From Prochlorococcus sp. AG-347-J19 (GTDB taxonomy: Bacteria; Cyanobacteriota; Cyanobacteriia; PCC-6307; Cyanobiaceae), in NCBI GenBank assembly GCA_003279015.1, contig QCBV01000009.1, positions 1 to 63,965 of the forward strand: 63,965 nucleotides of DNA, in the 5' to 3' direction. The notes under the pieces were generated by a model, which was not told where the DNA came from, did no database searches, and saw only the letters and a program-made list of their open reading frames with translations. Shown here piece by piece: positions 271-16,617 of this stretch (the first letter of the stretch is position 1; every line of letters starts with the position of its first letter). Position numbers and translations under genes: made by a program.

Positions 271-1203
271 CTAATAATTTTGAGATGATAAAAGACTATT
301 TATGCTCTTTTTAACATTCCCAGCATTACTGCATTCATTGGCTTTTTTATTTGCCTTCTTATATCCAAGATCAGAAGCCTTTATCCAGTCCTCGCAAGCC
401 TGATTATAATTCCCTTCGAGATTGTTATAGATTGCTCTTCCAAAGAATGCAAATCCATCATCCGAATTAATTTCAATGGCGTTTGAAAAATCATTTATTG
501 CCCCATTATTGTCTCCGATCTGACCTTTTGAATATGCTCTTCCAATAAATGAATAATCATCTTCTGGATCAATTTTTATCGCTTTAGAATAATCTGATAT
601 GGCTGCATAAAAATCCCCTGCTCTTTCTTTTACATAACCCCTAGCACTATATGCATATGCATCTTCTGGATTAATTTCAATGGCAGAAGTTAAATCTTTA
701 ATTGCTCCTTGATGGTCACCAATGTCAGACTTTGCATAGCCTCTACTTATAAATGCTTTCTGATGCTGATCATCAATTTCAATTGCTTTGTTGAAATCAG
801 ATATGGCACCGTAGGAATCTTTTAATTTATCTTTAGATAATCCACGATTATAAAAAGCTGAAGCTTTTTCAGGGTTTATTTGAATAGCTCTTGTATAGTC
901 CTGAATCGCACCTTCATGATCATTCAGATAACTTTTTGAAAGAGCTCTTTGAAAAAGTGCATAATAATCATTGGGATTATTTAAAAGAATTTTTGAATAA
1001 TCAGTGATCGCTCCTCTATAGTCTTTTGAGGAATATTTTTTATCTCCACTTTCCAAAAGAGATTCATTATGGTTGTTGTGGCTGATATTTTTAGCGATAA
1101 CAGTTTCAGTATTTTTGATAAAAGTTTGATTCTGTTGAGCGAATAAATTACCGACTGGAATTAAAGATAAACTTGCAGCGATAATAAGAAGTTGTTTTTT
1201 CAT
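271..1203 (-). CDS. Exported TPR-repeat protein
   Basis: The 310-residue protein has a clear N-terminal signal peptide (MKKQLLIIAASLSLIPVGNLFAQ, cleavage expected after about residue 22). It then carries seven consecutive 34-residue tetratricopeptide repeats from about residue 50 to 285, each with the pattern A-x3-R-G/A-x-S-K-x7-GAI-x-D. TPRs are protein-protein interaction scaffolds; no catalytic domain is visible, so the partner is unknown. The repeats closely resemble those in the TPR-CHAT protease at 10479-14105, suggesting shared ancestry or a common binding partner in the periplasm. It is monocistronic: a motif-type promoter lies at 1239-1263 and a terminator at 201-232. Confidence 0.85.
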   Translation of the reverse strand: MKKQLLIIAASLSLIPVGNLFAQQNQTFIKNTETVIAKNISHNNHNESLLESGDKKYSSKDYRGAITDYSKILLNNPNDYYALFQRALSKSYLNDHEGAIQDYTRAIQINPEKASAFYNRGLSKDKLKDSYGAISDFNKAIEIDDQHQKAFISRGYAKSDIGDHQGAIKDLTSAIEINPEDAYAYSARGYVKERAGDFYAAISDYSKAIKIDPEDDYSFIGRAYSKGQIGDNNGAINDFSNAIEINSDDGFAFFGRAIYNNLEGNYNQACEDWIKASDLGYKKANKKANECSNAGNVKKSINSLLSSQNY

Positions 1204-1235: not shown

Positions 1236-1700
1236 TTAGTTCTCTTTTCTTTTTTTTGATTCCTCTAGAAGATTATTGATAAATTTCTGACTTGCCTCAG
1301 GGATATCAAAATCACCAAAAATATCTCTTATTATTGTTGCTGCTATTGCATTGACATGGACTACATTTTTCATATCAAGAATCTCATTAAATTCCCTTAC
1401 ATGAGCAAAGCCATCATGATCGACTGTGTACCAACAGGAACAACCTTTTACTGATTCAAGATTATTAGGATCGCCGTCAACATAACTGAAATTTGCAGTT
1501 TTATCATCATTAATACTGACAAGAATGATCGGCACATTTTGGTTGTACTTATGAGGTGTACATTCCCAATAGAGAAGGAAGATATTATTAAAGTTTTTAA
1601 CTAAATCTTCTGGAGAGACGCCCTTAAATAGGTTCCACTTATTATCAGTAGCATAGTTATGAGAAGCTACTTTTGAATTCTTAAAGAACAGGTTTTTCAT
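1236..1700 (-). CDS. Hypothetical protein, 154 residues
   Basis: I do not recognise the family. The protein is soluble-looking, without signal peptide or membrane segment. It has a central region with aromatic and cysteine residues (YWECTPH; KGCSCWYTVDHDG) and a charged, lysine-rich C-terminus. Its last codons and stop form the downstream half (GAACTA) of the promoter-like motif for the next gene, so the two units are packed without any intergenic promoter region. It has its own motif copy at 1730-1757. GC appears a little higher than in neighbouring genes, consistent with acquired DNA. Confidence 0.65.
   Translation of the reverse strand: MKNLFFKNSKVASHNYATDNKWNLFKGVSPEDLVKNFNNIFLLYWECTPHKYNQNVPIILVSINDDKTANFSYVDGDPNNLESVKGCSCWYTVDHDGFAHVREFNEILDMKNVVHVNAIAATIIRDIFGDFDIPEASQKFINNLLEESKKRKEN
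1239..1265 (-). promoter_or_regulatory. Island promoter-like motif, copy 2, embedded in a coding 3' end
   Basis: GGAATC (1263-1258) and GAACTA (1242-1237) are separated by exactly 15 nt, and GAAC lies 36 nt before the ATG at 1203. The element overlaps the last codons and the stop of the gene at 1236-1700. The intervening 15 nt are almost pure A/G because they encode a lysine-rich tail. Confidence 0.65.
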
Positions 1701-2043: not shown

Positions 2044-2073
2044 GTTCTTGAATAATTTTTCTGATTCCAAATT
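2044..2073 (-). promoter_or_regulatory. Island promoter-like motif, copy 4
   Basis: AATTTGGAATCAG (starting near 2073) and GAACTA (2047-2042) are separated by 15 nt. It lies in the short gap between the CHAT gene stop at 2072 and the ATG at 1999. The first bases of the motif touch the CHAT stop codon. Confidence 0.7.
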
Positions 2074-5000
2074 AGAAATCTATTGGTCTCCAGTCTCCAC
2101 TTAATTGAAATGCTGCCCATACATTTGGATGACGCCATGCCTTTATAGGGTGCATTCTGAATTCTTTTTGAGTGGCTCGAAGTGCATTTGCACGTCCTTC
2201 TTTATTTCTTAATTTGGTATAGAAGCTTTCCATAAAAGCTGCAGTCGCATTATCATTGACTTTCCAAAGAGATAATAAACTTGATCTTGCTCCTGCTACT
2301 GCAATTGCTCGTTTAAGACCATATACACCTTCACCTGATTGAATTTCACCTTTACCTGATTCACAACCTGAAATTACTGCCATCTCAGTTCCTTGCCATT
2401 CAAGTTTTGCAACTTCTAAAGCTAATAAATAGCCATCATCATTTGGATTTAAGTCAGGTTGGTTTGCTCCTGCCAAAACAATTCCACTTCTTAATAATGG
2501 ATTTTCTAGTCCTTTTTTATCAGGCATAAAATAAGCATGACTGGCGATATGAATAATTTTCGGGGAAATTTTTTTTTGAACTGCTAAAGATGAAGCTTTA
2601 TCTTCCATAAGTAATTCAGCATTTGTTATTTTTGCAATAATTTGACCTTCTTTAGACGTTCCCGGTAAAGGATTCCAGGATTGAAATGTAAAGTCACCTG
2701 AGCGTTGTTGAGTTTTACTAGCTTTTAAAGCTATTGAATAATTTTTGTTAGATGTATTGATTCTCTTATCAAAATTAGGATTAGCAACTACTAGAGATTC
2801 TTCATTTGAATTGTTTGATTTATTAGCTAGCTTTAGTAAATCTCTTCCAGTAGTCAATAAACGTAAATCCACGACCTCTCCAAGTAAATTTGAACCTTTA
2901 TGAGAATTAATTGCTGCAAATGGGATTCTATTCAGTTCTGCGTCGGGAGAAATAAATATAGTTTTGTTATCTTCAATAAATTTATCCAATGGCTTAATAA
3001 CTAAATTTCCAACTTCGTTCCATAATTCTTGCGCATCACTTAGAAATTGTTCAGATGCTATTAGAGCTTTTTGGATTTTATTTTCTATCAGTTCAGCTTC
3101 TCCAAGATCAATAGCATCTATATCACCATTATTATTAAGTGTTAGGGCTAAATATCTTTCTTTACCCCATTTTTCTTCATCGATATTTGAACCACTATAT
3201 GGAGAATATTTTATAAATTCAATTAATAAACTTTTTTTAGGAATTAATTTAGCTATTTGCGAAACTGTAACTATTCTTGGCTTAAGTTCTGGTAGAAGAC
3301 GATAAAGTTTACGCTCTAAATTTTGTTTCTCTTCTAATAAATTTTCACGCTCTTCATCAGATATATCTCTAGATGAAACTTCTTGAGTGATTTTTTTCAA
3401 TTGATTGGCAACTTTTTTTTGTGGTCCTGGCAATACTGAAAGTTTTGCCTGACGTCTCTCAATTTCTTCAAGAAGACCTTGTTTATTTAGTCTCGAAAAT
3501 AAAGCAATATTTTTGCCAGTTTCTCCTTGGAATGCGTAGGAAAAAACTCTTTCATATGTATATCCAAAAGACTCACTAAATAGATTTCTCTCACTTAAAG
3601 CTAAATAAGGAGCTTCTCTTTGGATTAATGTGAAGTCAATTTCTAAGGTTTTCCTCGCATAGAATTCCGCTTTTTTATATAAACCCTGATCCTCATATAA
3701 AATTGCTAAATTACCCGCTGCAATTCCTACCTTTTGATTCATTTTGCCAAAAACTTTTTCATCAATATCTAGTGCTTTTAATAAAAGGGGCTCAGCTTTT
3801 TTATATAAACCTTGCTCAAGATAAAGTAAGCCAAGATTATTTAAATTTGTAGCGATTTTTGTGTTGTTTGGTTCATAAATTTTTTCTGTTATTTTCAAAG
3901 AACGTTTAAAAAGTTTTTCCGCTTTTTTATATAAACCTTGATCCATATAAAGCGAAGCAAGATTATTAAGTTTGACAGATATACTGGGATGATTTTCTCT
4001 GAAATTTTTTTCATCAATGGATAAAGCTCTTTTGAATAAAGGTTCAGCCTTTTCATATAAACCTTTTTCTTGATAAAGAGAGGCTAATCTATCAAGACTA
4101 TTAGAAGTATTTGGATGATTATGTCCTAAAGTATTTTCATTTATTTTTAAAGCCCTTTTTAAATGTGGTTCTGCTTTATCTAAAAGTCCTTGATCCATAT
4201 ATATCATACCTAATCTCTGTAAATTAAGACTTAGATCAGGATGATTAGGTCCTAAAGTATTTTCATTTATTTTTAAAGCTCTTAGAAGATAATTTTCTGA
4301 TTTACTAAATAAACCTAGATCAAAATAGATCGCGCCCAGATTATAAGAAGTTAAAGCAATTACAGGATGCTCATAACCTAAAGAGTCTTCATCCAAAGAT
4401 AGAGCTTTTAAATAAAAATCCTCTGCTTTATTAAAAAGATCTTGTTCATGATAAAGCAAAGCTAAATTGTTAAATCTTATTGATAACATAGGATGATCAA
4501 GACCATATACTCCTTCATCTATTTTTAATGCGCGAAGCAGCATTTGTTCAGCCTTATCAAAAAAACCTTGATCCTTATAAAGTATTCCTAGGTTATTGAG
4601 ACTTGAAGCTGTTGCAGGATGATTGGGTCCTAATATTTTTTCATTTATGTTTAATGCGCGAATAAAAATAGTCTCAGCTTTATTATATAGACCTTGATCC
4701 TGATAAGTCTCTCCCAGACTACTAAGAGTTACTACAGTTTCAGGATTGTCATATCCTAGTATTTTTTCTTCAATCTCTAAAGCCTCAATAAACAAAATTT
4801 CAGCTTTCTTATATAGGCCCTGATTTTTATAAATATATGCCAAATTATGCAAAGCTAAAGATGTTCCGGGATGATTTTGTCCAAGAGCTTTTCTTGTAAT
4901 TTCAAGAGCTTCTTTAAATTTAGATTCGGCCTTTTTATACAGGCCCTTATACTGGTAATTTAAGGCAAGATTATTTAGAACAATTGCATAATCAGGATGA

Positions 5001-5896
5001 TCTGTTCCTAAATTATTTTTATCAATTTCTAATGCTTTAAGAAATAAAGGTTCAGCTCTATCATATAATCCTTGATCCTGATAATTTAGTCCAAGATTAT
5101 TTAAGTTTTTAGAAGTATCAGGATGATTATTTCCTAATTTGTTTTTATAAATTTTTGAGGCTCTAATGAATAGAGATTCGGCTTTTTTATATAAACCTTT
5201 CGATCTATAAATCAAAGCTAAATTATCAATTGTATAAGCTGTATCTAAATGTTTAGTACCTAATTTTTTTTCATCAATTTCTAATGCTCTAATAAGCAAA
5301 GACTCAGCTTTATCATATAAACCTTGGTCATTATATATTAATGCTAGATGATTAAGAGTTGTAGATGTATCTATATGATTAGCACCTAATATTTTTTCAT
5401 CAATTTCTAATGCTTTTAAAAGTAGAGGTTCAGCTTTTTTGTATAAACCTTGATCCTGATAAATTAAGGCAAGATTTATCATGCTATTTGATGTCTCTTT
5501 ATGATTAATCCCAAATAAGCTTTTTCTAATTTCTAATGCTTTAATACTGGAAGCTTGTGCTTTCTGATATAAATTTAGATATCTATATATTTCTGCAAGC
5601 CAAGAATATGTATCTGCTAAATCACTATTAAGTTCTCCAAGAAATTTTTTTTCTAATCTTAAAATCTTTTCTAAATATAAAATAGCATCATTAAAATTTT
5701 TACTATCTTCTGCTTTTTCAATTAATTTAATTAACCTTTTAATTTCTTTTTTTGCTTGACCTTTATTTAATATATTTTCTATTGCTTCAATTTTTTCTTT
5801 ATTTTGTGCTGCTAATAATTCAAAATTAGGATAGATAGGCATTAAAAAAGTTAATGCGAAAGCTAAATATCTTTTAGAGTTTTTAATTGTTTTCAA
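2072..5896 (-). CDS. Exported TPR-CHAT caspase-like protease (1,274 residues)
   Basis: A hydrophobic N-terminal segment ending in LLAAQ (about residues 10-30) looks like a signal peptide. It is followed by a degenerate repeat and sixteen regular 42-residue kinesin-light-chain-type TPRs (about residues 90-770, core GLYKKAEPLLLKALEIDEK), then a charged coiled segment, then a C-terminal CHAT domain. The catalytic pair is intact: His1120 in IASHAYF and Cys1178 in SGCESGKG. CHAT domains are caspase-like cysteine proteases; TPRs usually sense or recruit substrates. It is the last gene of a tightly packed block, 8 bp after the DUF1822-like gene. The substrate is unknown. If the signal peptide is used, proteolysis occurs outside the cytoplasm. 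Confidence 0.9.
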   Translation of the reverse strand: MKTIKNSKRYLAFALTFLMPIYPNFELLAAQNKEKIEAIENILNKGQAKKEIKRLIKLIEKAEDSKNFNDAILYLEKILRLEKKFLGELNSDLADTYSWLAEIYRYLNLYQKAQASSIKALEIRKSLFGINHKETSNSMINLALIYQDQGLYKKAEPLLLKALEIDEKILGANHIDTSTTLNHLALIYNDQGLYDKAESLLIRALEIDEKKLGTKHLDTAYTIDNLALIYRSKGLYKKAESLFIRASKIYKNKLGNNHPDTSKNLNNLGLNYQDQGLYDRAEPLFLKALEIDKNNLGTDHPDYAIVLNNLALNYQYKGLYKKAESKFKEALEITRKALGQNHPGTSLALHNLAYIYKNQGLYKKAEILFIEALEIEEKILGYDNPETVVTLSSLGETYQDQGLYNKAETIFIRALNINEKILGPNHPATASSLNNLGILYKDQGFFDKAEQMLLRALKIDEGVYGLDHPMLSIRFNNLALLYHEQDLFNKAEDFYLKALSLDEDSLGYEHPVIALTSYNLGAIYFDLGLFSKSENYLLRALKINENTLGPNHPDLSLNLQRLGMIYMDQGLLDKAEPHLKRALKINENTLGHNHPNTSNSLDRLASLYQEKGLYEKAEPLFKRALSIDEKNFRENHPSISVKLNNLASLYMDQGLYKKAEKLFKRSLKITEKIYEPNNTKIATNLNNLGLLYLEQGLYKKAEPLLLKALDIDEKVFGKMNQKVGIAAGNLAILYEDQGLYKKAEFYARKTLEIDFTLIQREAPYLALSERNLFSESFGYTYERVFSYAFQGETGKNIALFSRLNKQGLLEEIERRQAKLSVLPGPQKKVANQLKKITQEVSSRDISDEERENLLEEKQNLERKLYRLLPELKPRIVTVSQIAKLIPKKSLLIEFIKYSPYSGSNIDEEKWGKERYLALTLNNNGDIDAIDLGEAELIENKIQKALIASEQFLSDAQELWNEVGNLVIKPLDKFIEDNKTIFISPDAELNRIPFAAINSHKGSNLLGEVVDLRLLTTGRDLLKLANKSNNSNEESLVVANPNFDKRINTSNKNYSIALKASKTQQRSGDFTFQSWNPLPGTSKEGQIIAKITNAELLMEDKASSLAVQKKISPKIIHIASHAYFMPDKKGLENPLLRSGIVLAGANQPDLNPNDDGYLLALEVAKLEWQGTEMAVISGCESGKGEIQSGEGVYGLKRAIAVAGARSSLLSLWKVNDNATAAFMESFYTKLRNKEGRANALRATQKEFRMHPIKAWRHPNVWAAFQLSGDWRPIDF
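3640..5640 (-). repeat. Tandem 126-bp (42-codon) TPR-coding repeats
   Basis: About sixteen in-frame units encode near-uniform 42-residue TPRs without insertions. At DNA level the stretch encoding DQGLYKKAE recurs with only a few substitutions. This gives a strong 126-bp periodicity that favours slippage or recombination between units. Confidence 0.8.
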
Positions 5897-5904
5897 ATTA
5901 AAAT

Positions 5905-7098
5905 TTACTCACATTTAATATTTTCAATAATTTCTTTCTTGGCTTTTTCTAATACCTTCGAATCTGGTACCTTTTCTGATAGAAGTAAAGAAAGAGAGGT
6001 ATTTCTATTATCCTCTAAATTTTTGTCTATAAACTTAATCCAGGATCTTTTTGATTTTCCTAGCTTATTTTCTATTTGACTGGTTTTTAAGAAAGTTTTC
6101 TTTTCGTCTATTTTTAGATTAATGATTACATTAGATCCAATTCCAGATCCTGATGGTCTCATTGATATCTTATAGTTATTATCTTTATTAATTTCTTTAA
6201 TAGGCCAATTTATTGGTCCCTCAATTTTATCTTTTGATGAGGCTGTCTTACTCCAAACAACATTTCCATTTTCAGAAATTTTGATTTCATTAAGAGGTTT
6301 CAATGGATAAATTACAGGTTTATCAATATTGATTAATGCTTCAAGTTGATCATTTGCATTTGTTTCGGCAAGAGGCGTAAGAAGGCATACTTTATTTTTT
6401 TGGCTTGTAAAGCTTCTTGTAAATGAAGTGACTTCATAAGATACAGGAGACAATGTTGCTATGCCTCCAATCAACTTTGGCCTAAATATTTGAGGACCAA
6501 ATAATGCAACTACAACAGCACCAGTAATAACGGAACTGGAAACTTTTAATCTGTTTTTGATTTTATTTAAATTAATTAAAGGTGATTCTTTTTCTATAAA
6601 AGTTCGCTCAATGGAATCAGAACTTAAAAGTCTCACAAATCTAAATAGCCTATCAATGCCACCTTTGAAATCATCTGTTAAAAGAGTTATTTCATTATTA
6701 TTTATTTTTTTGTTCTTTATTAATTTCATAAATTCGTCACTCTTTAATACCCCCTTAAAATGAACAATATTTAATTCCTCTTCAACTTGTACTGCTAAAA
6801 ACAATTGTGGACCTTTTTTCTCAATTCTTGAGTTTTTCAATGGAATAGATATTTCCTCGGAAATCATTCCTGTTGATACGATCTGTATATCAAATTTATT
6901 AAGAATTATCGATCGTTCTGGATTATTTAAATCTAATGATGGTCCCAGAGGTAAATCTAATTTTTTTTCTTTAAGAACTTTTTGTAAACCTTTTATGATT
7001 AACTCTCTATTAGAAAGTTTTAATTCTTGATCTAAATATATTGAGTCCTCGGGGATTGGAAGCGCCTGTGGAATATTATTCATATTTGATTGATTCAT
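5905..7098 (-). CDS. DUF1822-like protein with a central membrane segment
   Basis: The 397-residue N-terminal half (P-rich start, then ..VSTGMISEEISIPL..GPQLFLAVQVEEELNIVHFKGVL..) matches my memory of the cyanobacterial DUF1822 family, whose members often neighbour CHAT-domain genes. A hydrophobic stretch at about residues 187-204 (VITGAVVVALFGP) could be one membrane span. It would separate a cytoplasmic N-terminal domain from a C-terminal beta-rich domain. Its ATG overlaps the upstream sigma-like gene stop (ATGA, 7095-7098), implying translational coupling. The CHAT gene follows after 8 bp. A membrane partner or anti-factor for the upstream regulator is an inference. Confidence 0.6.
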   Translation of the reverse strand: MNQSNMNNIPQALPIPEDSIYLDQELKLSNRELIIKGLQKVLKEKKLDLPLGPSLDLNNPERSIILNKFDIQIVSTGMISEEISIPLKNSRIEKKGPQLFLAVQVEEELNIVHFKGVLKSDEFMKLIKNKKINNNEITLLTDDFKGGIDRLFRFVRLLSSDSIERTFIEKESPLINLNKIKNRLKVSSSVITGAVVVALFGPQIFRPKLIGGIATLSPVSYEVTSFTRSFTSQKNKVCLLTPLAETNANDQLEALINIDKPVIYPLKPLNEIKISENGNVVWSKTASSKDKIEGPINWPIKEINKDNNYKISMRPSGSGIGSNVIINLKIDEKKTFLKTSQIENKLGKSKRSWIKFIDKNLEDNRNTSLSLLLSEKVPDSKVLEKAKKEIIENIKCE

Positions 7099-8402
7099 TT
7101 ATTTATTTCCTCCTTAATGATTTTCCTGAGAATAGATCCCTCTTCTTGTAGTTCCGGATTTAATAAATGATTCTTTAATCCATCTACAAATCTTTCAATT
7201 CCATCGGGATCATTTTTTAATGATGAAAAATCATTAATTTTTAAAAGTTCAAATGCAGCATCCTGAGCAATTTCTTCTGAAATTTTCTTTTCAGGAATTA
7301 ACTTGCTAACCCATGCCTGTTTATGGTCGCATCTGCTTGCTATATCTCTTTGACTATAACCCTCGCCATATAATTCCCATGCATCTTTTCTTGAAATATC
7401 CTTTTCCCATTTCTTTTTATCATTTTCAATAAGATTCTTAATTGTTTTTGAAGAATAAATCTTTAATATTTGATCAACTTTTTTTGCAATCTCTTTACCT
7501 GAAAATTCATCATCATTCTCCTGAAAACTTTCTAACTGAGATTCTTCATTATTCTCAAAATTGCGCGCATTATCAGCACCAGCAATATATTGCCTTAAGG
7601 CCTTATCTATAAGAAGTAAATTTTTAATGTTTTCTTGGGGAGGATCTAGTGAAAGCAGGAAATTTTCATCTGGATACCATCCTGAGATTTTCCCTGTTCG
7701 ATTTTTATAATCCTCTTTTTCTTTTTTATAAATTTTTATATATGAGTCATATATTTTCTCAACTTCTCTTAATTTCAATTCACCCTCTCCGCATCTATTC
7801 CATGAATTAATTATTCTGGTTTTGGAACTATCTGCAATTAATGCCCAGGGACTAATTAAGAGAAGTCCACAACTTTTTAAATATGATTTAAGTTCGTAAT
7901 TTCCTTGAACTTTATTTTTAGTCCACGTAGATAAATTCGATAATTTAGGATTGAATTCTGAGATTATTTCAGCACTGAATGGTTTTATAAATTTTCTTTC
8001 TTGCATATTCTTTACTGTATTCCAACAGAAAACTTTTTTTAAAAACTTTCTTGGATTTTCTGCTTCTGAAGGCAGGCGAAGAAAATTTTCTCCACTATCA
8101 TCAAGCAAGATTATCAACATTTCATTTAAATCAATCTCATATCCATTTGAGAACTGTTTATATATCAAATTAATTTTTTCATAAATTGGAAAACTAACTC
8201 TACATCTGAGTGCTAGAAGCGGATCTTTTGAATCCGGTTCTTTTTTAGTTATGGTTAAAAGTTCCTTATCAAAAGTATCAGAATATTCTTTTGATAAAAG
8301 TTCATGTTCTCTCTCAAAATTTGGATCAAAAGCTAATTCCTTTCTCTTCACTTTCGAGGAAAAAGAATCAAGGAAATATATGTTGCAGTAATCCTTTGAC
8401 AA
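7095..8402 (-). CDS. Sigma-factor-like regulator with C-terminal HTH
   Basis: The 435-residue protein resembles the poorly characterised cyanobacterial sigma-70-like proteins found beside DUF1822 and CHAT genes. The shared block is LSTWTKNKVQGNYELKSYL followed by a segment containing LLLISPWALIADSS. Near residues 343-368 a helix-turn-helix pattern (GYSQRDIASRCDHKQAWVSKL) could be a region-4-like DNA-binding helix. No classical sigma region 2.4 is obvious to me, so it may be a divergent ECF-type factor or another DNA-binding regulator. It overlaps the DUF1822-like gene by 4 bp and follows the ATPase gene by 31 bp. It is the best candidate to recognise the six-copy island motif (inference). Confidence 0.55.
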   Translation of the reverse strand: MSKDYCNIYFLDSFSSKVKRKELAFDPNFEREHELLSKEYSDTFDKELLTITKKEPDSKDPLLALRCRVSFPIYEKINLIYKQFSNGYEIDLNEMLIILLDDSGENFLRLPSEAENPRKFLKKVFCWNTVKNMQERKFIKPFSAEIISEFNPKLSNLSTWTKNKVQGNYELKSYLKSCGLLLISPWALIADSSKTRIINSWNRCGEGELKLREVEKIYDSYIKIYKKEKEDYKNRTGKISGWYPDENFLLSLDPPQENIKNLLLIDKALRQYIAGADNARNFENNEESQLESFQENDDEFSGKEIAKKVDQILKIYSSKTIKNLIENDKKKWEKDISRKDAWELYGEGYSQRDIASRCDHKQAWVSKLIPEKKISEEIAQDAAFELLKINDFSSLKNDPDGIERFVDGLKNHLLNPELQEEGSILRKIIKEEINK

Positions 8403-8433: not shown

Positions 8434-9327
8434 CTAAATTGCAAGATTTCTAAATCTTGTATATTGAGGCTCAAATAATAATTTGACCGTACCAACTGGC
8501 CCATTACTCTGTTTGGTAACAATGATTTCTGTTATACCTCTATCCTCAGTTTCAGGGTTATAGTATTCATCCCTATAAATAAAAGCTATCAAATCAGCTT
8601 TATTTTCAATTACTTCTGAGTCCCGAATATCACTGAGCATAGGCCTTTTGTTTAGTCTTGTTTCTAATTCTCTGTTTAATTGAGATGTAATTATTACCGG
8701 TACTTCAAGATTTATAGATAAATTTTTTAAATCGTTCAGGATTTTTGAAAGCTCATCTTCTCTAGAAATATTTTGACCTAAAGTCCTATCTTCTAATAGT
8801 TGAAGAAAATCAATAACTATTAAACCAAGATTTTTTTTATGATTATTTTTTACCTCCTCACAAAATTGGTAAATTTCTGAAACTTGTATCGTTGATTTAT
8901 CAATTAGATATATTGGGTTCTTACTATATAAATTTATTGCTTCTCCTAAAAATGGCCATTCATCCTGAGTTAATCTTCCTGTTCTAAGTCGACCAGATTC
9001 TATTCCAGTATCCATTGAAAGTAATCTATAAGAAAGCATTTTTTTGCTTGTCTCCAGAGAGAAAAAACATACTGGTAAATTATGAAATTGGCCTATATTT
9101 TTTGCAATATTTAATACAAAAGAGGTCTTACCCATTGCTGGACGTCCTCCAATAATATAAAGATTCCCTGAAGATAGTCCTTGAGTCATCGCATCTAAAT
9201 CATAAAAATTCATGGCTTTTCCAGCTTCTGAATTGCCAAGTGATCTTGATTCAATTTCTTCAAATACTTTGGTTAATAAACCATCTATTTTTGATTCATC
9301 AGTATTGAGTGATTTTTTGTTTTTCAT
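8434..9327 (-). CDS. DnaB-C-like RecA-fold ATPase lacking the DnaB N-terminal domain
   Basis: The 297-residue protein contains the DnaB helicase C-terminal domain only. It has Walker A GGRPAMGKTS (60-69), FFSLETS, Walker B LIVIDFLQLL (Asp173), VPVIITSQLNRELETR, and a terminal VKLLFEPQYTRF. The roughly 150-residue primase-interacting N-terminal domain of replicative DnaB is missing; only about 45 unrelated residues precede the core. It could be an element-encoded replication helicase or a RecA-like regulator. It is co-transcribed with the sigma-like, DUF1822-like and CHAT genes (28-31 bp gaps), so a role in that module is possible. Short DnaB-like ATPases are also plausible components of integrative elements. 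Confidence 0.85.
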   Translation of the reverse strand: MKNKKSLNTDESKIDGLLTKVFEEIESRSLGNSEAGKAMNFYDLDAMTQGLSSGNLYIIGGRPAMGKTSFVLNIAKNIGQFHNLPVCFFSLETSKKMLSYRLLSMDTGIESGRLRTGRLTQDEWPFLGEAINLYSKNPIYLIDKSTIQVSEIYQFCEEVKNNHKKNLGLIVIDFLQLLEDRTLGQNISREDELSKILNDLKNLSINLEVPVIITSQLNRELETRLNKRPMLSDIRDSEVIENKADLIAFIYRDEYYNPETEDRGITEIIVTKQSNGPVGTVKLLFEPQYTRFRNLAI

Positions 9328-9596: not shown

Positions 9597-9917
9597 TTAA
9601 TTAAGAGGTCGCTTGAAATTGTAATAGTGAAAAGTAACACCATTTGAAGAAACATCTTGATTAACTACATGACTTACTAATTCCCATCCTGCAGCACCCA
9701 GCTGATTAAGCATTTCGTGAAGAGTTGGAACAATCACATCATCACCAAAATTATTTCTCCAGGACCGTATTCTTTCTCCATCAATGTCTAAGAGATTTAT
9801 TTCTTGAGTAATTCCTCTGCCTTTGTAGTCAAGACGAATATGTTTATATTCATAAGTAGTTAAACCTTGAATATTCTTTTGATCATTAGGGATCAAATCT
9901 AAAGTTGAGTTTGTCAT
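9597..9917 (-). CDS. DUF4177-like small protein, 106 residues
   Basis: The layout fits small DUF4177-type proteins: an N-terminal strand YEYKHIRLDYKGRG, a middle segment with LHEMLNQLGAAGWELVSHVV, and a C-terminal strand HYYNFKRPL. Its function is unknown. No signal peptide is present. It is transcribed from a motif-type promoter (9964-9990) and is followed by a weak hairpin terminator, then by the operon that encodes the sigma-like protein. Confidence 0.6.
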   Translation of the reverse strand: MTNSTLDLIPNDQKNIQGLTTYEYKHIRLDYKGRGITQEINLLDIDGERIRSWRNNFGDDVIVPTLHEMLNQLGAAGWELVSHVVNQDVSSNGVTFHYYNFKRPLN

Positions 9918-10478: not shown

Positions 10479-13400
10479 TTACCAATTAATTGGTCTCCAA
10501 TCTCCATTTAATTGAAATGCAGCCCATACATTTGGATGTTGCCAAGCTTTAATAGGATGCTCTCTAAATTCTTTTTGAGTATTTGATAATGCTTTTGATC
10601 TGCTCTCTCCTGATTTAAGTTTTAAATAAAAACTTTCCATAAATTCTGCGGTTGCCTTATCATCCACTTCCCAGAGCGAAAGTAAGCTTGATCTTGCACC
10701 TGCAACTGCAATTGCTCTTTTAAGTCCGTAAACTCCTTCCCCAGATTGCAGATCACCCTGACCTGATTCACAACCAGAAACGACTACTAATTCTGTGCCA
10801 TTCCAATTTAATTTACTTACCTCTAGAGCAGTAAGATATCCGTCGTCCTTTAAATTTTTATCAGGATAGTTTGCTCCTGCTAAAACTATTCCACTTCTTA
10901 ATAATGGATTTTCTATTCTTTTATTGTTGGTTATGGAATTTGAAAATATATTTTCTGAAAATAAATTATCATCTTTATTATCACCGATGTAAAAAGAATG
11001 GGTCGCAATATGAAGGATTTTTGGAGATTCTTCCATTTGAATATTTAAAGCAGATGCTTCATTCTCTAGGAATAATTTGGCATTAGTAATTTTTGATATG
11101 ATATCTGCTTCTTTTTTTGTTCCTGGTAAGGAAAGCCAGATTCGATTTTTTTGATCAAATGATCTTTTTTGTACATTAAAGTTTTTTGATGTTAACTCTT
11201 TTCTGCTATTGCTTGAGTTTTCCCCAGATAAGTTGAAATTTGGATTTGCAACAACTATTGATTGTTTATTACTTAAATTCTTTTCTTTATTTAAAGTTAT
11301 AAGTTCTCTTCCAGTGGTTAGAAATCTTAGTTTAAAAATATCTCCCAATAAATCTGTTTTATTAAAGCTTCCAATTGCAGCAAATGGCACTTTATTTAGT
11401 TCACTATCAGGGGAAATAAATAAGGTTTTTTTATTTTTAATATATTTCTCTAGGGGCTTGATAATTTTTGAACCTAATTCATTCCAGATATCTTGTGCAT
11501 CAATTAAAGATTGTTCAGAGGAAACTAAGCCAAGAGATATTAACTGATCGATTTCAGCCGCCTTACCTAAATCTACGCTTTCTACCTTGTTATTTGGAAA
11601 TAATATAAGAGCTTGATACTTGGCCTCTCCCCAAGTAGTCTCGTCCATACTTTGATCAGGATCGATAAAAATATAAGGTCTATATTTTTGAAATTCAATA
11701 AGTACTGCATCTTCAGGTATTTCTTTTGATATGTCATTCAAGCTGTATATTTTTGATTTTAGTTGTGGAAGTGATTTATATAATGCCAACTCTAATTTTT
11801 CTTTTTCAAGTTTCAATTTATCCAGAGATTTTTTATTATCTTGATTTGTTGAAGATAGCTGATTTGTTAAGTCTTTAATCTTTTGCATTAGTTCTTTATC
11901 AGAACCTTTTAGGCTGGCTAATGTGATTTGTTTTTTTTCAATATCCTCTAGTAATCCATGTCTATTTAATCTCGCAAATAATGCTAGATTCTTGCCTTGT
12001 GGATCAATATCCGTAGCTGTAAATATTGCTTGGTATGAAATTCCTAATGTCTTAATAAACTGGTTCCTTTTTGAAATTGGCAAGAATGGAATTTGATCTT
12101 GAATATATTTAAATTGAATGCCTAAACTTCTTCTAAGGTAGTAATCAGTTTTTTTGTAATTTTTTTCATTAAAATAAACCATCGCAACATTCAGTAGAGG
12201 TTGTATAAGATAATGACTTTCATCCCCAAAAATTTCTTCATATCCCTTTAAAGCCTGCTCATGATAAATTTTTGCTTCATCATTTTTCTTGTCCCACCAA
12301 TATGCGTAACCAAGCATTTCTGATAAAAGATAGTCTGGTTTGGCGAGTTTATTTTCCTTAAGATGCCTATCATATAGACGTTGCAAAATTTTCTGTGCTT
12401 TAGAATAATTTTTTTCTTTAAATGCTATTTGAGAGCGAATAATTTGGCCATCTAAAGATCTGAATTTAAAAAGTTTCTTTGCCTCTTTAAAATCTTTTGA
12501 ATCATAGATAAGAATATTAGCTAAATATTTTTTGCACTCTATTGTGTTAAAGGAATCTATTAAATTAAATCTTTCAGATTCAAATAAACATTTATTTAAG
12601 CTTTTCTTGGCTTTATCATTATCACCAATAGATCCATAATATAGAGCTTCTTTGTAAAACAAATCTAAATAATCATCATTTTTATTTATGATTTTTTTAG
12701 ATATTGATTTCCCTTTTTTTATTAAGGGCAGAATTTCTTGATAGATTCCATTTGATAGATAGGTTCCAGTTAAATTATTAATAGTTGATAATATTTCTTG
12801 ATCATCGCCAACATCAAAAACTCTTTTATAGTCTGAAACTGCACCCTCTATATCACCAAGCTGTCCTTTTATTATTGCTCTGCTATTGAAACTAAATGCA
12901 TGATATGGGTCAATTTCAATTGCTCTAGAATGATCAATTAATGCTCCTTTGAGATCATTAATTTTAGTTTTGTAGAAGCCCCTAGAATTAAGTGCATAAA
13001 CATTTGGTTTTATTTTAATAGCTTTATCAAGGTCTTTTATCGCTGAAATAAAATCACCAATTTTATAATAGAAATAAGCTCTTCTTTCATATGCTTGATG
13101 GTCTTTATTATTTAGGGTTAATAACTTGGTAAGGTCCTCAATAGCGCCTGTCATATTATCTAATTCACTCTTAGATAAAGATCTATAAAAAAATGCGTCT
13201 TCGCGTTTTGGGTTTAATTTAATTACCTCTGAAAAGTCTTCAATCGCTCCCTTGTTATCTTCAATTAAAAATTTGGTATAGGCTTTGAAAAAATATGCAT
13301 CCTCATACTTTGGATTAATATTTATCGCAGATATATAATCTGAAATTGCACCCTCATAATCCTTTAATCTTCTTTTGGCCTGACCTCTGTTGAAGTAGGC

Positions 13401-14105
13401 AGAATCATCATCGGGATATAATTTTAAAAGTTTTGAATAATCTTCTACAGCTCCATTGAGATCATTTAATTCCGCTTTGAGAAAACCTCTGTAGAAAAAT
13501 GCATCCTCATACTTTGGATTAATATTTATCGCAGAATTATAATCTGAAATTGCACCCTCATAATCCTTTAATCTTCTTTTGGCCTGACCTCTGTTGAAGT
13601 AGGCAGAAGCATCATTAGGAGCTAATTCTATAAGCTTTGAATAATCATCTACAGCTCCATTAAGATCATTTAATTCTGCTTTTAGAAAACCTCTGAAGAA
13701 GTAAGCATCTTCGTAATTTGGATTAATATTTATCGCAGAATTATAATCTGAAATTGCATCTTTAAAGTTCCCATTTTTTTTATGGGAATAACCGCGTCTG
13801 AAAAAAGTTTTTTCCCAGGGATTTGGATTTAATTCAATAGCTTTTGAATAATCATCAATAGCACCTAAATAATCGCCAAGATATTCTTTACTTAGTCCTC
13901 TATTATGAAATGCTTCCCAACTTCCCGGGTTTGATTTTATATAGTTGTTAAAGTCACTTAAAGCATCTGAATATTTTTTGTTAGTGAAATTATCTTTGCC
14001 GCTTTCAAAAAAAGATTCCTTGGTTTCCGCTTCAAGAGCTTTAAAACTGAAAATATTTGCAGGACTGGAAATGAATAAAAATAATAATAAAAGATACTTA
14101 GTCAT
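10479..14105 (-). CDS. Second exported TPR-CHAT caspase-like protease (1,208 residues)
   Basis: A signal peptide (MTKYLLLLFLFISSPANIFS) is followed by about eleven 34-residue TPRs (residues 30-430, consensus A-x3-RG-x-A-K-x7-GAI-x-DY), then an irregular helical region, then a C-terminal CHAT domain. The catalytic residues are intact: His1036 in IATHSFY and Cys1112 in SGCESGQG. The CHAT domain is strikingly similar to the one at 2072-5896 (shared GEGVYGLKRAIAVAGARSSL and a GDWRPI ending). The TPR arrays are of different classes: 34-residue here, 42-residue there. It lies 5 bp behind the zinc peptidase gene, so the two are surely co-transcribed. Two adjacent TPR pairs are nearly identical in DNA. 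Confidence 0.9.
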   Translation of the reverse strand: MTKYLLLLFLFISSPANIFSFKALEAETKESFFESGKDNFTNKKYSDALSDFNNYIKSNPGSWEAFHNRGLSKEYLGDYLGAIDDYSKAIELNPNPWEKTFFRRGYSHKKNGNFKDAISDYNSAININPNYEDAYFFRGFLKAELNDLNGAVDDYSKLIELAPNDASAYFNRGQAKRRLKDYEGAISDYNSAININPKYEDAFFYRGFLKAELNDLNGAVEDYSKLLKLYPDDDSAYFNRGQAKRRLKDYEGAISDYISAININPKYEDAYFFKAYTKFLIEDNKGAIEDFSEVIKLNPKREDAFFYRSLSKSELDNMTGAIEDLTKLLTLNNKDHQAYERRAYFYYKIGDFISAIKDLDKAIKIKPNVYALNSRGFYKTKINDLKGALIDHSRAIEIDPYHAFSFNSRAIIKGQLGDIEGAVSDYKRVFDVGDDQEILSTINNLTGTYLSNGIYQEILPLIKKGKSISKKIINKNDDYLDLFYKEALYYGSIGDNDKAKKSLNKCLFESERFNLIDSFNTIECKKYLANILIYDSKDFKEAKKLFKFRSLDGQIIRSQIAFKEKNYSKAQKILQRLYDRHLKENKLAKPDYLLSEMLGYAYWWDKKNDEAKIYHEQALKGYEEIFGDESHYLIQPLLNVAMVYFNEKNYKKTDYYLRRSLGIQFKYIQDQIPFLPISKRNQFIKTLGISYQAIFTATDIDPQGKNLALFARLNRHGLLEDIEKKQITLASLKGSDKELMQKIKDLTNQLSSTNQDNKKSLDKLKLEKEKLELALYKSLPQLKSKIYSLNDISKEIPEDAVLIEFQKYRPYIFIDPDQSMDETTWGEAKYQALILFPNNKVESVDLGKAAEIDQLISLGLVSSEQSLIDAQDIWNELGSKIIKPLEKYIKNKKTLFISPDSELNKVPFAAIGSFNKTDLLGDIFKLRFLTTGRELITLNKEKNLSNKQSIVVANPNFNLSGENSSNSRKELTSKNFNVQKRSFDQKNRIWLSLPGTKKEADIISKITNAKLFLENEASALNIQMEESPKILHIATHSFYIGDNKDDNLFSENIFSNSITNNKRIENPLLRSGIVLAGANYPDKNLKDDGYLTALEVSKLNWNGTELVVVSGCESGQGDLQSGEGVYGLKRAIAVAGARSSLLSLWEVDDKATAEFMESFYLKLKSGESRSKALSNTQKEFREHPIKAWQHPNVWAAFQLNGDWRPINW
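13296..13404 (-). repeat. Near-identical internal repeat, unit A (204-bp period)
   Basis: About 109 bp are identical to 13500-13608 apart from a few mismatches. The offset is 204 bp, exactly two 34-codon TPRs. A shorter third match begins near 13712. This indicates a recent in-frame duplication or gene conversion of a TPR pair. Confidence 0.8.
13500..13608 (-). repeat. Near-identical internal repeat, unit B
   Basis: This is the partner of 13296-13404, at an offset of 204 bp (68 codons). It encodes a TPR stretch including INPKYEDAFFYRGF, compared with INPKYEDAYFFKAY in the partner unit. Confidence 0.8.
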
Positions 14106-15344: not shown

Positions 15345-16313
15345 TTAAAGTAAAGATAATTCATAGTGACTATATCTCATCAACATTTTTATATCTCTAT
15401 GACCACTGCATGCACTTATTTCAAGAGCATTCATTCCACTACTCCACATTCTGCTTATGGCAATATGCCTTAAGTCATGAAATCTGAGAGTTTGAAGCCC
15501 GGCCCTTTTTCTGGCTTTATCGAATCCATTTCTCGCAGCCCCTTTTGATAGTTCTATGACCTTCCCATTTCTCTCATTTGATTCCTCAAGAATCTTTTCC
15601 GCCTGTTCAGGGAGAGGAACAAGCCTCATTACAGATGCATTATCTGTGGCGGCACAATTCTTTCTATATATATAGATTATTCTTTTCTTGAGATCTATAT
15701 TGCTCCAGTTCAGGCTCAGAAGTTCGGAGCGGCGGAAGCCAGTTGCCAGTGCAAGCTTTGTGAGTCTCAGATGATTTTTATTGGACATCTGAGACAGTTC
15801 ATATAAAAGTCTTTTCTCGTCCTGATCAGTGAAAAATGGAGTTCTGGCATCTCCTGTCCCTCTCACTCTCAGATGCCTTGCGGGGTTATCTTTTATTTCC
15901 GCTCCTCTCTCATCCTTTGCCCAGTCGATCAGTACTCTCAATATCCTCAGTTCCCGCATAACTGTATTTGGTTTGACCTTCAGTAATCGTTCATCTCGCC
16001 AGACCGCAAAGTGCTTTATCTGCAGATCGCTTAGTGGAATATCTCCAAGCCAGCTTTCTGCCGTCACCCTGAGGGGATATTTTTCATTCTCCGCACTGCG
16101 GTGCAGCAGCAGCGGACCATTTATATAGTCATTGATTGCCTCTCCCAGGGTGACGGGGATGTCATTTAAAACCCTTTTTGTTCTCTCTTCCACTGCATCT
16201 GCCCAAGATTCAGCCAGATCTCTGGAAAAAAAATTTCTGGACCTCGGGCCTACATAATTCTTCCTTCTGATAAGGACCTGCCAGCCGCTGCCGCTTCTTC
16301 TGATTGTTGCCAT
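15345..16313 (-). CDS. Tyrosine recombinase / integrase
   Basis: The protein is 322 residues from the preferred start MATIRRSGSGW at 16313; an in-frame upstream ATG at 16340 would add nine residues. The C-terminal catalytic domain shows GFRRSELLSL (first Arg), HDLRHIAIS (His and second Arg), SGHRDIKMLMRY (His) and the nucleophile Tyr in YSHYE near the C-terminus. It is a phage-integrase/XerC-type enzyme. The gene begins about 140 bp past the 3' end of tRNA-Thr and runs in the same direction, the standard layout for tRNA-targeted elements. Its GC content is visibly far higher than that of the surrounding DNA. No excisionase gene is evident nearby. Confidence 0.9.
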   Translation of the reverse strand: MATIRRSGSGWQVLIRRKNYVGPRSRNFFSRDLAESWADAVEERTKRVLNDIPVTLGEAINDYINGPLLLHRSAENEKYPLRVTAESWLGDIPLSDLQIKHFAVWRDERLLKVKPNTVMRELRILRVLIDWAKDERGAEIKDNPARHLRVRGTGDARTPFFTDQDEKRLLYELSQMSNKNHLRLTKLALATGFRRSELLSLNWSNIDLKKRIIYIYRKNCAATDNASVMRLVPLPEQAEKILEESNERNGKVIELSKGAARNGFDKARKRAGLQTLRFHDLRHIAISRMWSSGMNALEISACSGHRDIKMLMRYSHYELSLL

Positions 16314-16367
16314 TTCGGTGTCATCGTTTGTGTGATGCACCTCCAGATATCTGCCTTTAAAACAGAA

Positions 16368-16439: not shown

Positions 16440-16453
16440 AGCTATCCCGCGAG

Positions 16454-16525
<72 letters not shown>

Positions 16526-16535
16526 AATTTTAAAG

Positions 16536-16617
16536 TGGGCCGGGTTGGATTTGAACCAACGTAGGCAGAGCCAGCGGATTTACAGTCCGCCCCCTTTAAC
16601 CACTCGGGCACCGACCC
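16536..16617 (-). tRNA. tRNA-Tyr (GTA)
   Basis: An 82-nt class II tRNA with a long variable arm. The acceptor stem GGGTCGG pairs with CCGGCCC (one T-G pair); the anticodon loop CTGTAAA carries GTA; the T arm is GGTTCAAATCC. It lies 10 bp upstream of tRNA-Thr and is probably co-transcribed with it. Confidence 0.95.

Follow-up and report, generated by a model that had tools for sequence, protein, structure and literature searches.

The portion of Zhu et al. (2016; PMC5074805) used here describes recently amplified cyanobacterial TPR arrays whose units are unusually alike and whose unit number differs among orthologues, amplification having proceeded separately in each orthologue and to differing extents. 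Two-unit duplication has likewise been published: in the corresponding portion of the survey by Bjorklund et al. (2006; PMC1553488), which covers many domain families with mainly eukaryotic repeats, several domains are reported to be copied together, two being the commonest number overall, and frequently mid-array. As for CHAT proteases, excerpted accounts exist of Craspase, which combines the TPR-CHAT protein Csx29 with Csx30 and CASP-sigma (PMC10028731), and of the HetF/CHAT proteins of heterocyst formers (PMC8406250, PMC10811720), with which the present protein shares the cyanobacterial CHAT family. HetF is set apart by its description in the excerpt of PMC8406250 as a divisome and developmental factor.

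We analyzed a 63,965-bp stretch of DNA from Prochlorococcus sp. AG-347-J19 (the window), which encodes on its minus strand a 1208-aa TPR-CHAT protein (10479..14105). The open reading frame, Pfam matches, unit count and a structure model assign to it 12 TPRs of about 34 aa, a helical linker and a C-terminal CHAT (caspase-like) domain. In contrast to the arrays in the cited part of PMC5074805, only 4 of the 12 units are closely alike (in pairs of 84% and 97% DNA identity), the duplicated unit comprises two TPRs and the array belongs to a CHAT protein. The copying of two units mid-array is as described in the excerpt of PMC1553488, here in a bacterial protease.

A two-TPR repeat in the middle of the array

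The 12 units occupy 12795..14018 (minus strand), as delimited by self-comparison, unit count and the structure model, in which the array scored mostly above pLDDT 90. Self-comparison of the gene revealed two 110-bp tracts that were equal at 108 of 110 bases, one at CDS 498-607 (unit 5 and the start of unit 6; 13499..13608, minus strand) and the other at CDS 702-811 (unit 7 and the start of unit 8; 13295..13404, minus strand). Their offset of 204 bp corresponds to two 34-residue TPRs, one unit being 102 bp. The best 109-bp self-match within the gene reached 107 identities and the best across 60 codon-order shuffles reached 59; the near-identity of stretches of about 109 bp pointed out by an earlier sequence-only reading is therefore real and beyond chance. 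The same reading had described the other repeats of the gene as strongly diverged, and indeed, apart from units 5/7 (97% DNA identity) and units 4/6 (84%), every other pair of units was 23-68% identical.

The homology extends further than the near-identical tracts. TRF reported a period of 204 bp at 13286-13758 (2.3 copies, 91% matches), and in combination with self-comparison this defined a two-TPR unit present 2.3 times from the end of unit 3 to the start of unit 8 (13295..13758, minus strand), with 260 bp (CDS 348-607) related at offset 204 and 21 mismatches in total. The interval originally proposed, 13296-13608, thus captured the near-identical tracts and fell short of the full extent of homology. 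Along CDS 348-607 the mismatches were distributed as 0/42, then 19/108, then 2/110, so that 19 of the 21 fell in the 108 bp immediately preceding the near-identical tract. This uneven spread gave a permutation p of 0.012, and a Fisher test on the 19/108 segment, whose boundaries were picked after looking, gave a p of 5e-5.

A plain recent 204-bp duplication should leave its copies uniformly near-identical over 204 bp or more. We rejected it because, of the 260 bp related at this offset, the near-identical tract accounts for just 110. In-frame copying of two TPRs, as originally suggested, is retained, while the notion of a simple recent event is not. An older two-TPR duplication, later partly re-homogenized, fits the mosaic best, and the uneven divergence fits, with moderate strength, either gene conversion or a further recombination event. 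A donor elsewhere for the 464-bp stretch was considered and dismissed: across 266 genomes of the genus there was no close copy, any match at E 1e-5 being confined to 22 of them (own genome included), with non-self matches either short or 65-89% identical and the longer ones 65-67% identical.

Unit number among orthologues and related genes

A comparison of repeat number in homologues, which the sequence-only reading had proposed as a check, yielded 12, 10, 7, 7, 7, 6, 6, 5 and 5 TPRs across nine orthologues. The orthologues thus differ by whole TPRs, and the repeat in the window is a two-TPR internal expansion mid-array. Unit number shifted within each of three fully supported clades (12 versus 7, 7 and 7; 10 versus 6; 6 versus 5 and 5), and the alignment gaps between orthologues measured exactly 170, 136 and 34 residues. 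With counts from 5 to 12, the homologues do not show the uniform number, order and divergence of repeats that would have argued against rapid turnover.

These numbers also bear on the possibility that the tandem copy is an assembly or amplification artefact of a draft genome. The genome is in 20 contigs and several related genomes carry titles that mark them as single-cell or metagenome assemblies (we take the AG- and SCGC names to denote single cells). However, a misassembled copy would not carry the 21 in-frame differences that separate the copies over 260 positions; the five extra units relative to the closest orthologues exceed one miscopied 204-bp unit; and similar repeats occur in other genomes, all of which makes an artefact very improbable.

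Near-identical whole-TPR repeats were present in 9 of 59 TPR-CHAT ORFs of 700 aa or more, the window's gene among them, and in all nine the offset was a multiple of 102 or 126 bp. The 59 ORFs were drawn from 49 stretches: 9 chosen earlier, plus 40 taken from the top portion of the CHAT list (long open frames). Among TPR ORFs without CHAT such repeats occurred in 2 of 31 (Fisher p 0.32), a count that sets aside 16 ORFs cut by locus ends; within the 49 stretches, the repeats in non-CHAT ORFs were in L162 (409 aa) and L168 (760 aa). An expansion specific to CHAT genes is therefore unsupported, and the behaviour belongs to TPR arrays, since TPR genes without CHAT show it as well. A wider scan of 131 records, many of them overlapping, additionally turned up a non-TPR repeat in a pilin-like ORF (L117) and another repeat in L068, both in records outside the 49 stretches. 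Carriage by viruses found no support either: the 109 candidate stretches from viral contigs contained no gene for a relative.

Collectively, the changes in whole units and the recurrence of near-identical repeats in related genes support the ongoing expansion and contraction or gene conversion envisaged by the first reading, conversion being moderately supported by the permutation result. We infer that the array gains and loses units through slippage or recombination among TPR units that resemble one another, and growth would stay in frame because the units are 102 bp long. Part of the duplicate would then have been homogenized by conversion between units 5 and 7.

Such turnover may instead be neutral, with cyanobacterial TPR arrays gaining and losing units by slippage and unequal recombination without selection for diversity, and with the near-identity being a remnant of an unevenly diverged duplication. 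This is possible, if on balance rather unlikely. The repeats in TPR genes without CHAT speak for it, as do the known behaviour of recently amplified arrays and the predominance of two-domain duplications (PMC5074805 and PMC1553488, as excerpted) and a dN/dS of 0.25-0.27 against the three closest orthologues, which carries no sign of positive selection. A diversity-generating retroelement or invertible cassette system, of the kind that diversifies putative conflict proteins in bacteria including cyanobacteria (PMC10907252 and PMC7517822, in the parts cited), is already contradicted and its probability is close to nil: no reverse transcriptase (PF00078) was matched in the window's genome, which is 96% complete, against 3 of 14 control genomes that were positive; the differences consist of whole units; and these retroelements are reported in the excerpt of PMC7517822 to be absent from Prochlorococcus.

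Divergence, recombination and selection

Between the window's genome (W) and G147, dS of the gene was 0.50, compared with 0.08-0.32 in six of seven cassette neighbours (the seventh, p154, had 3.1), a difference that neutral unit turnover alone leaves unexplained. Across aligned codons 61-420, which cover TPRs and linker, pS between W and G147 was 0.54-0.76, dropping to 0.07-0.17 in the final three alignment windows. For G124 versus G107, two TPR windows had a pS of 0.62-0.69 and no other exceeded 0.33. These values would be inflated if TPRs that align are not genuinely equivalent, which may be the case. Moreover, the second TPR-CHAT protein was 44% identical between W and G134, the first 79% and p154 71%, while the Zn-peptidase, DnaB-C, p435, p397 and TPR-only proteins were 92-98% identical.

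These patterns would suit diversifying recognition, in which arms-race or frequency-dependent selection (by phage, grazers, kin or envelope ligands) keeps TPR number and sequence variable and alleles are swapped by homologous recombination. A phage-resistant Nostoc strain in which a CHAT gene is one of two mutated loci points in the same direction, although the authors connected the CHAT mutation with the loss of nitrogen fixation (PMC10811720, in excerpt). Nevertheless, core genes close by also had high dS between W and G147 (cobI 0.61, DUF1823 0.39), and recombination is therefore regional. The TPRs of G145, G073 and G202 lacked such a pS peak, the high pS may in part be inflated as stated above, dN/dS stayed below 0.3 and PADLOC gave no defence match for the protein. 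We consider this explanation unlikely. Judged by eye, the residues that differ between units 4 and 6 were not concentrated at the TPR positions presumed to face the ligand.

The immunity or self-recognition role initially suggested for the gene gained no support. The TPR-CHAT protein had no defence-family match in PADLOC at E 0.01, and the only results for the ten window proteins searched were generic TPR models for the second TPR-CHAT protein and, for the DnaB-C protein, a weak match to mad8 (4.7e-5). In addition, reverse transcriptase went unmatched in the genome, dN/dS was low and TPR genes without CHAT behaved alike.

The CHAT protease, its neighbours and a possible signalling module

The CHAT domain (10500..11486, minus strand) was identified by Pfam (PF12770, 5.7e-59, profile positions 4-289 of 289, several TPR families also matching) and by a search for the motifs HIATH and SGCESG, a presumed His/Cys dyad. 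The presumed catalytic motifs HIA[TS]H and SGCESG were conserved in 9/9 orthologues, and 47 of the 59 TPR-CHAT ORFs carried both motifs, the other 12 not both. An N-terminal hydrophobic segment (about residues 1-26; 14028..14105, minus strand), recognized by hydropathy only, is a probable signal peptide, and the protein is probably exported; with start codons uncertain, the threshold for a hydrophobic N-terminus was passed in 33 of the 59 TPR-CHAT ORFs and in 6 of the 9 orthologues. The structure model was poor in its CHAT part (pLDDT below 50 over 908-1127), which was excluded from use. Among the 50 matches listed in a PDB search with the whole model, we saw TPR or other helical-repeat proteins by look and no CHAT protease by title. 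A C-terminal profile against PDB sequences gave 17 rows, mostly kinesin light chains; Csx29 was absent from them, and kinship is still compatible with this.

All neighbouring protein genes discussed here lie on the minus strand. Just upstream is a Zn-metallopeptidase (PF04228; 14111..14872) with an N-terminal hydrophobic segment by hydropathy, and tRNA and family searches located a tyrosine integrase (15345..16340) beside tRNA-Thr/tRNA-Tyr (16453-16617). On the other side are a 106-aa protein with no family above cut-off (9597..9917), a 297-aa protein with a DnaB C-terminal ATPase domain (8434..9327; PF03796, 2e-83), p435 (7095..8402), p397 (5905..7098), the second TPR-CHAT protein, with TPRs of a 42-aa type by repeat and family search (2072..5896), the 154-aa p154, which matched no family and had dS over 2 against both G147 and G134 (1236..1700), and a TPR-only protein found by family search, with an N-terminal hydrophobic segment by hydropathy (271..1203).

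Structure comparison weakly suggests that p435 is possibly sigma-70-like. Of the first 30 rows obtained with its model, 28 bore titles of sigma factors or of RNA polymerase/initiation entries, at Z 4.9-7.3, where values under 8 may mean only a shared arrangement; matches below these rows were unrelated (Z 4.5 or less). Superposition on sigma domain 2 (3ugo) gave an rmsd of 3.6 over 108 and that on 1rp3 gave 2.9 over 81, and full-length matches had an rmsd of 16-19 A. The best Foldseek E was 0.52, Pfam and NCBIfam returned no family, and the possible C-terminal helix-turn-helix matched LsrR weakly (E 0.084). By hydropathy and locus comparison, p397 consists of an N-domain, one transmembrane-like hydrophobic segment near residue 186 and a C-domain; the segment lies at about residue 183-190 in 14/14 whole p397 proteins, and in 7/7 distant loci compared the halves are separate genes. 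By eye, the N-terminus of the C-part looks signal-like in L130, among others. In L123, a protein encoded between the halves scored 18.8 bits for CHASE2 (Pfam cut-off 26.3) and 40.3 for CHAT (cut-off 24). A p397 profile found no match among PDB sequences at E 5 or better, and the candidate Pfam families DUF1822 and DUF928 gained no support, with no match at E 5 for the window protein or at E 0.5-1 for the distant halves.

At E 1e-5, p435 was found in 38 of 400 genomes searched, and at the best place per genome its stretch also contained p397 in 34/38 and CHAT in 25/38 (14 of the first 15 examined). Five of the 13 stretches without CHAT are 12-19 kb long (L172, L181, L182, L184 and L187). Conversely, p435 was absent from 25 of 40 CHAT-chosen stretches, with L132 scored as a miss where the stretch ends just short of the p435 gene that L128 contains. 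The module is therefore not obligate.

From this anatomy we propose that the TPR superhelix of the probably exported protein would control the caspase-like protease by binding a ligand, which may be located at the cell envelope. The presumed one-span membrane protein p397 and the sigma-like p435 would be its likely partners, with cleavage of p397 outside the membrane freeing or activating p435, and a sensing arm with a different number of TPRs would differ in reach and specificity. Although weakly supported, this protease-to-sigma reading has a precedent in layout: DegS-RseA-sigmaE comprises an outer protease, a one-span membrane protein and a cytoplasmic sigma factor. The window would have the same three-part arrangement for transmembrane release, with a CHAT protein bearing a TPR arm as the protease. 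DegS-RseA-sigmaE has been cited as a parallel to Craspase in the excerpt of PMC10028731, and the window resembles Craspase, as described there, in encoding a TPR-CHAT protein together with a possible sigma-like factor and a third one that might restrain it. It differs in that no cas gene appeared among the PADLOC matches of the ten window proteins, the TPR-CHAT protein and p397 seem placed to act across the membrane, and p397 has no sequence match to any solved chain.

The account as a whole, comprising two-TPR expansion, partial conversion and an exported TPR-CHAT protein acting through p397 and p435, is tentative, and we would put it a little short of even. A bolder version, which we regard as quite unlikely, would have picocyanobacteria possess a CRISPR-free counterpart of the Craspase switch, in which the exported TPR-CHAT protein cleaves p397 to release the divergent sigma factor p435 and the TPR arm is diversified by copying of TPR pairs and by whole-allele swaps between cells, giving populations with many sensing specificities. 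The repeat itself is ordinary TPR turnover, a kind of growth already known; it points to a gene whose unit number varies within three close Prochlorococcus lineages and whose neighbours suggest a protease-to-sigma module, through which the part played by CHAT proteins in free-living cyanobacteria would become open to testing.

A two-unit repeat within the TPR array

The TPR-CHAT gene (10479-14105, minus strand) encodes a protein of 1208 residues that matches TPR families and, at its C-terminus, the CHAT domain. Its coding positions 498-607 (window 13608-13499) and 702-811 (13404-13295) are identical at 108 of 110 positions, and Tandem Repeats Finder detected the same repeat. The best 109-bp self-match of the gene had 107 identities, compared with at most 59 of 109 in 60 codon-order shuffles, which bears out the near-identical copies noticed in the sequence-only reading. 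The 204-bp offset is certainly in-frame and spans whole TPR units.

That reading had also called the duplication recent, which holds only in part. The homology at this offset covers coding positions 348-607 with 21 mismatches, which fall in three successive stretches as 0/42, 19/108 and 2/110. Codons for the same amino acid differ in 8 of 28 cases in units 4/6, whereas all 35 such codons of the near-identical tract agree (boundaries chosen post hoc), and permutation of the mismatch positions yielded p = 0.012 for an equally long stretch with at most two mismatches. Because of these three observations, the best fit, of moderate strength, would be an older two-TPR duplication in which one unit was homogenised later. 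Two-domain duplication (PMC1553488) and recently amplified cyanobacterial TPR arrays (PMC5074805) have been described.

Unit number and frequency of repeats

We searched all 266 genomes of the genus with the C-terminal 763 residues of the protein; 21 genomes, the window's own included, contained a match at 1e-100, and nine places matched the full or almost full query at 55% identity or more. A wider contig search returned seven loci, six of the nine Prochlorococcus places and one from Planctomycetota, the latter match being weak (23% identity, residues 4-243). The window's gene carries 12 TPR units, while its orthologues carry seven (genomes G147, G178 and G134), ten (G124), six (G107 and G202) or five (G145 and G073). 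The tree of the C-terminal part comprises three clades, all fully supported; gaps between aligned orthologues measure 170, 136 and 34 residues. The proposed expansion and contraction of the array is thus supported, with unit number changing within each clade. Since every relative has fewer units and the window's extra block contains the near-identical repeats, units were most likely gained in the window's copy.

Near-identical repeats (at least 95% identity over 90 bp, offset 60-900) were present in 9 of 59 TPR-CHAT ORFs (193,176 bp), always at multiples of 102 or 126 bp, whereas beyond CHAT ORFs (585,642 bp) they occurred in 2 of 49 stretches; a binomial test by bases, pooling ORFs and stretches alike as events, gave p = 1.2e-4 (3.5e-4 with the window gene set aside). 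In whole TPR genes that lack CHAT, their frequency (2/31) did not differ from that in TPR-CHAT genes (Fisher p 0.32), and the near-identical repeats therefore belong to TPR arrays generally. TPR-CHAT genes at L133 (G400), L151 (G414) and L131 (G303) contain long runs of near-identical 252-bp units, each of two 42-residue TPRs, exceeding the window's in extent. In the window's own genome, near-identical 186-bp in-frame repeats also occur in a helicase/nuclease protein (L068 7509-10568) that bears six helicase-associated (HA) domains.

Divergence along the cassette

Between the window and G147, dS was 0.50 for the TPR-CHAT gene. Within the surrounding cassette it was 0.083 for the Zn-peptidase, 0.079 for the 106-aa gene, 0.096 for DnaB-C, 0.101 for the TPR-only gene, 0.183 for p397, 0.316 for p435 and 3.1 for p154. 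Outside the cassette, dS was 0.273 for aroQ, 0.265 for miaE, 0.608 for cobI and 0.393 for DUF1823; high divergence is therefore not limited to the cassette. Inside the TPR-CHAT gene, pS for this pair reached 0.54-0.76 across the TPRs and linker and dropped to 0.07-0.17 over the final three windows; as the linker is non-repetitive, misaligned repeats are insufficient to explain the whole peak. G124 and G107 likewise showed a peak in the TPRs, and mutual comparison of G145, G073 and G202 revealed none there. A second TPR-CHAT gene (2072-5896) shares only 44% identity with the corresponding G134 gene, compared with 92-98% for five neighbours, and is absent from this place in G147. Allele replacement through recombination is likely. 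Against the three closest orthologues, dN/dS was 0.25-0.27, with no sign of positive selection on the TPR-CHAT gene. The family-less 154-aa protein p154 (1236-1700) shares 71% identity (dS over 2) with its counterparts in G147 and G134, and those two agree at 98%. An exchange of alleles similar to that of the TPR-CHAT genes is apparent here.

Gene context and a possible membrane switch

The order Zn-peptidase, TPR-CHAT, 106-aa, DnaB-C, p435, p397, TPR-CHAT 2, 154-aa, TPR-only is largely kept among relatives; no ORF resembling the 106-aa protein is among those listed for G134. The tRNA-Thr/Tyr genes and aroQ adjoin the Zn-peptidase end in the window, G147, G178 and G202. A tyrosine integrase (15345-16340) adjoins tRNA-Thr/tRNA-Tyr (16453-16617); an integrase remnant lies at the corresponding place in G202 (L066 16290-16613), and the ORFs listed for G147 and G178 include none that is integrase-like.

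No Pfam or NCBIfam family matched p435 (7095-8402, minus strand). Its structure model (mean pLDDT 85) gave a best Foldseek E of only 0.52, and a second structure comparison matched it chiefly to sigma factors, at Z-scores that may reflect chance arrangements. p397 (5905-7098, minus strand), with one transmembrane-like segment, lies within one stretch with p435 in 34 of 38 p435-bearing genomes of the family (window 5905-8402; loci L116-L130, L171-L189). CHAT occurs in 25 of the 38 p435-bearing stretches and, in the reverse direction, p435 in 15 of 40 stretches chosen by CHAT. At all seven larger-genome loci compared, different ORFs encode the two halves of p397, with a further ORF of about 710-760 aa between them; the one intervening ORF scanned scored above the cut-off for CHAT and below it for CHASE2.

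In Craspase, the TPR-CHAT protease Csx29 cuts Csx30, which when uncut inhibits CASP-sigma (PMC10028731). The cassette resembles this in its anatomy, with a TPR-CHAT protease, a putative membrane protein and a possibly sigma-like protein, in an arrangement that seems turned to act across the membrane. By analogy, we propose a Craspase-like switch in which an outer TPR-CHAT protease would act on the membrane protein p397 and, through it, on the sigma-like p435. Titles and abstract openings of the papers listed, with subscription literature mostly outside their scope, describe no such module in picocyanobacteria. The explanation as a whole, combining TPR-pair expansion, partial homogenisation and an exported protease acting on p397/p435, is tentative, at slightly below an even chance, given that the export test was passed by 6 of 9 orthologues and that the sigma-factor Z-scores carry the caution above. 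The immunity or self-recognition role earlier suggested for the repeat was not borne out; the gene context of the TPR-CHAT repeat is interesting and, as a possible switch, still a proposal.
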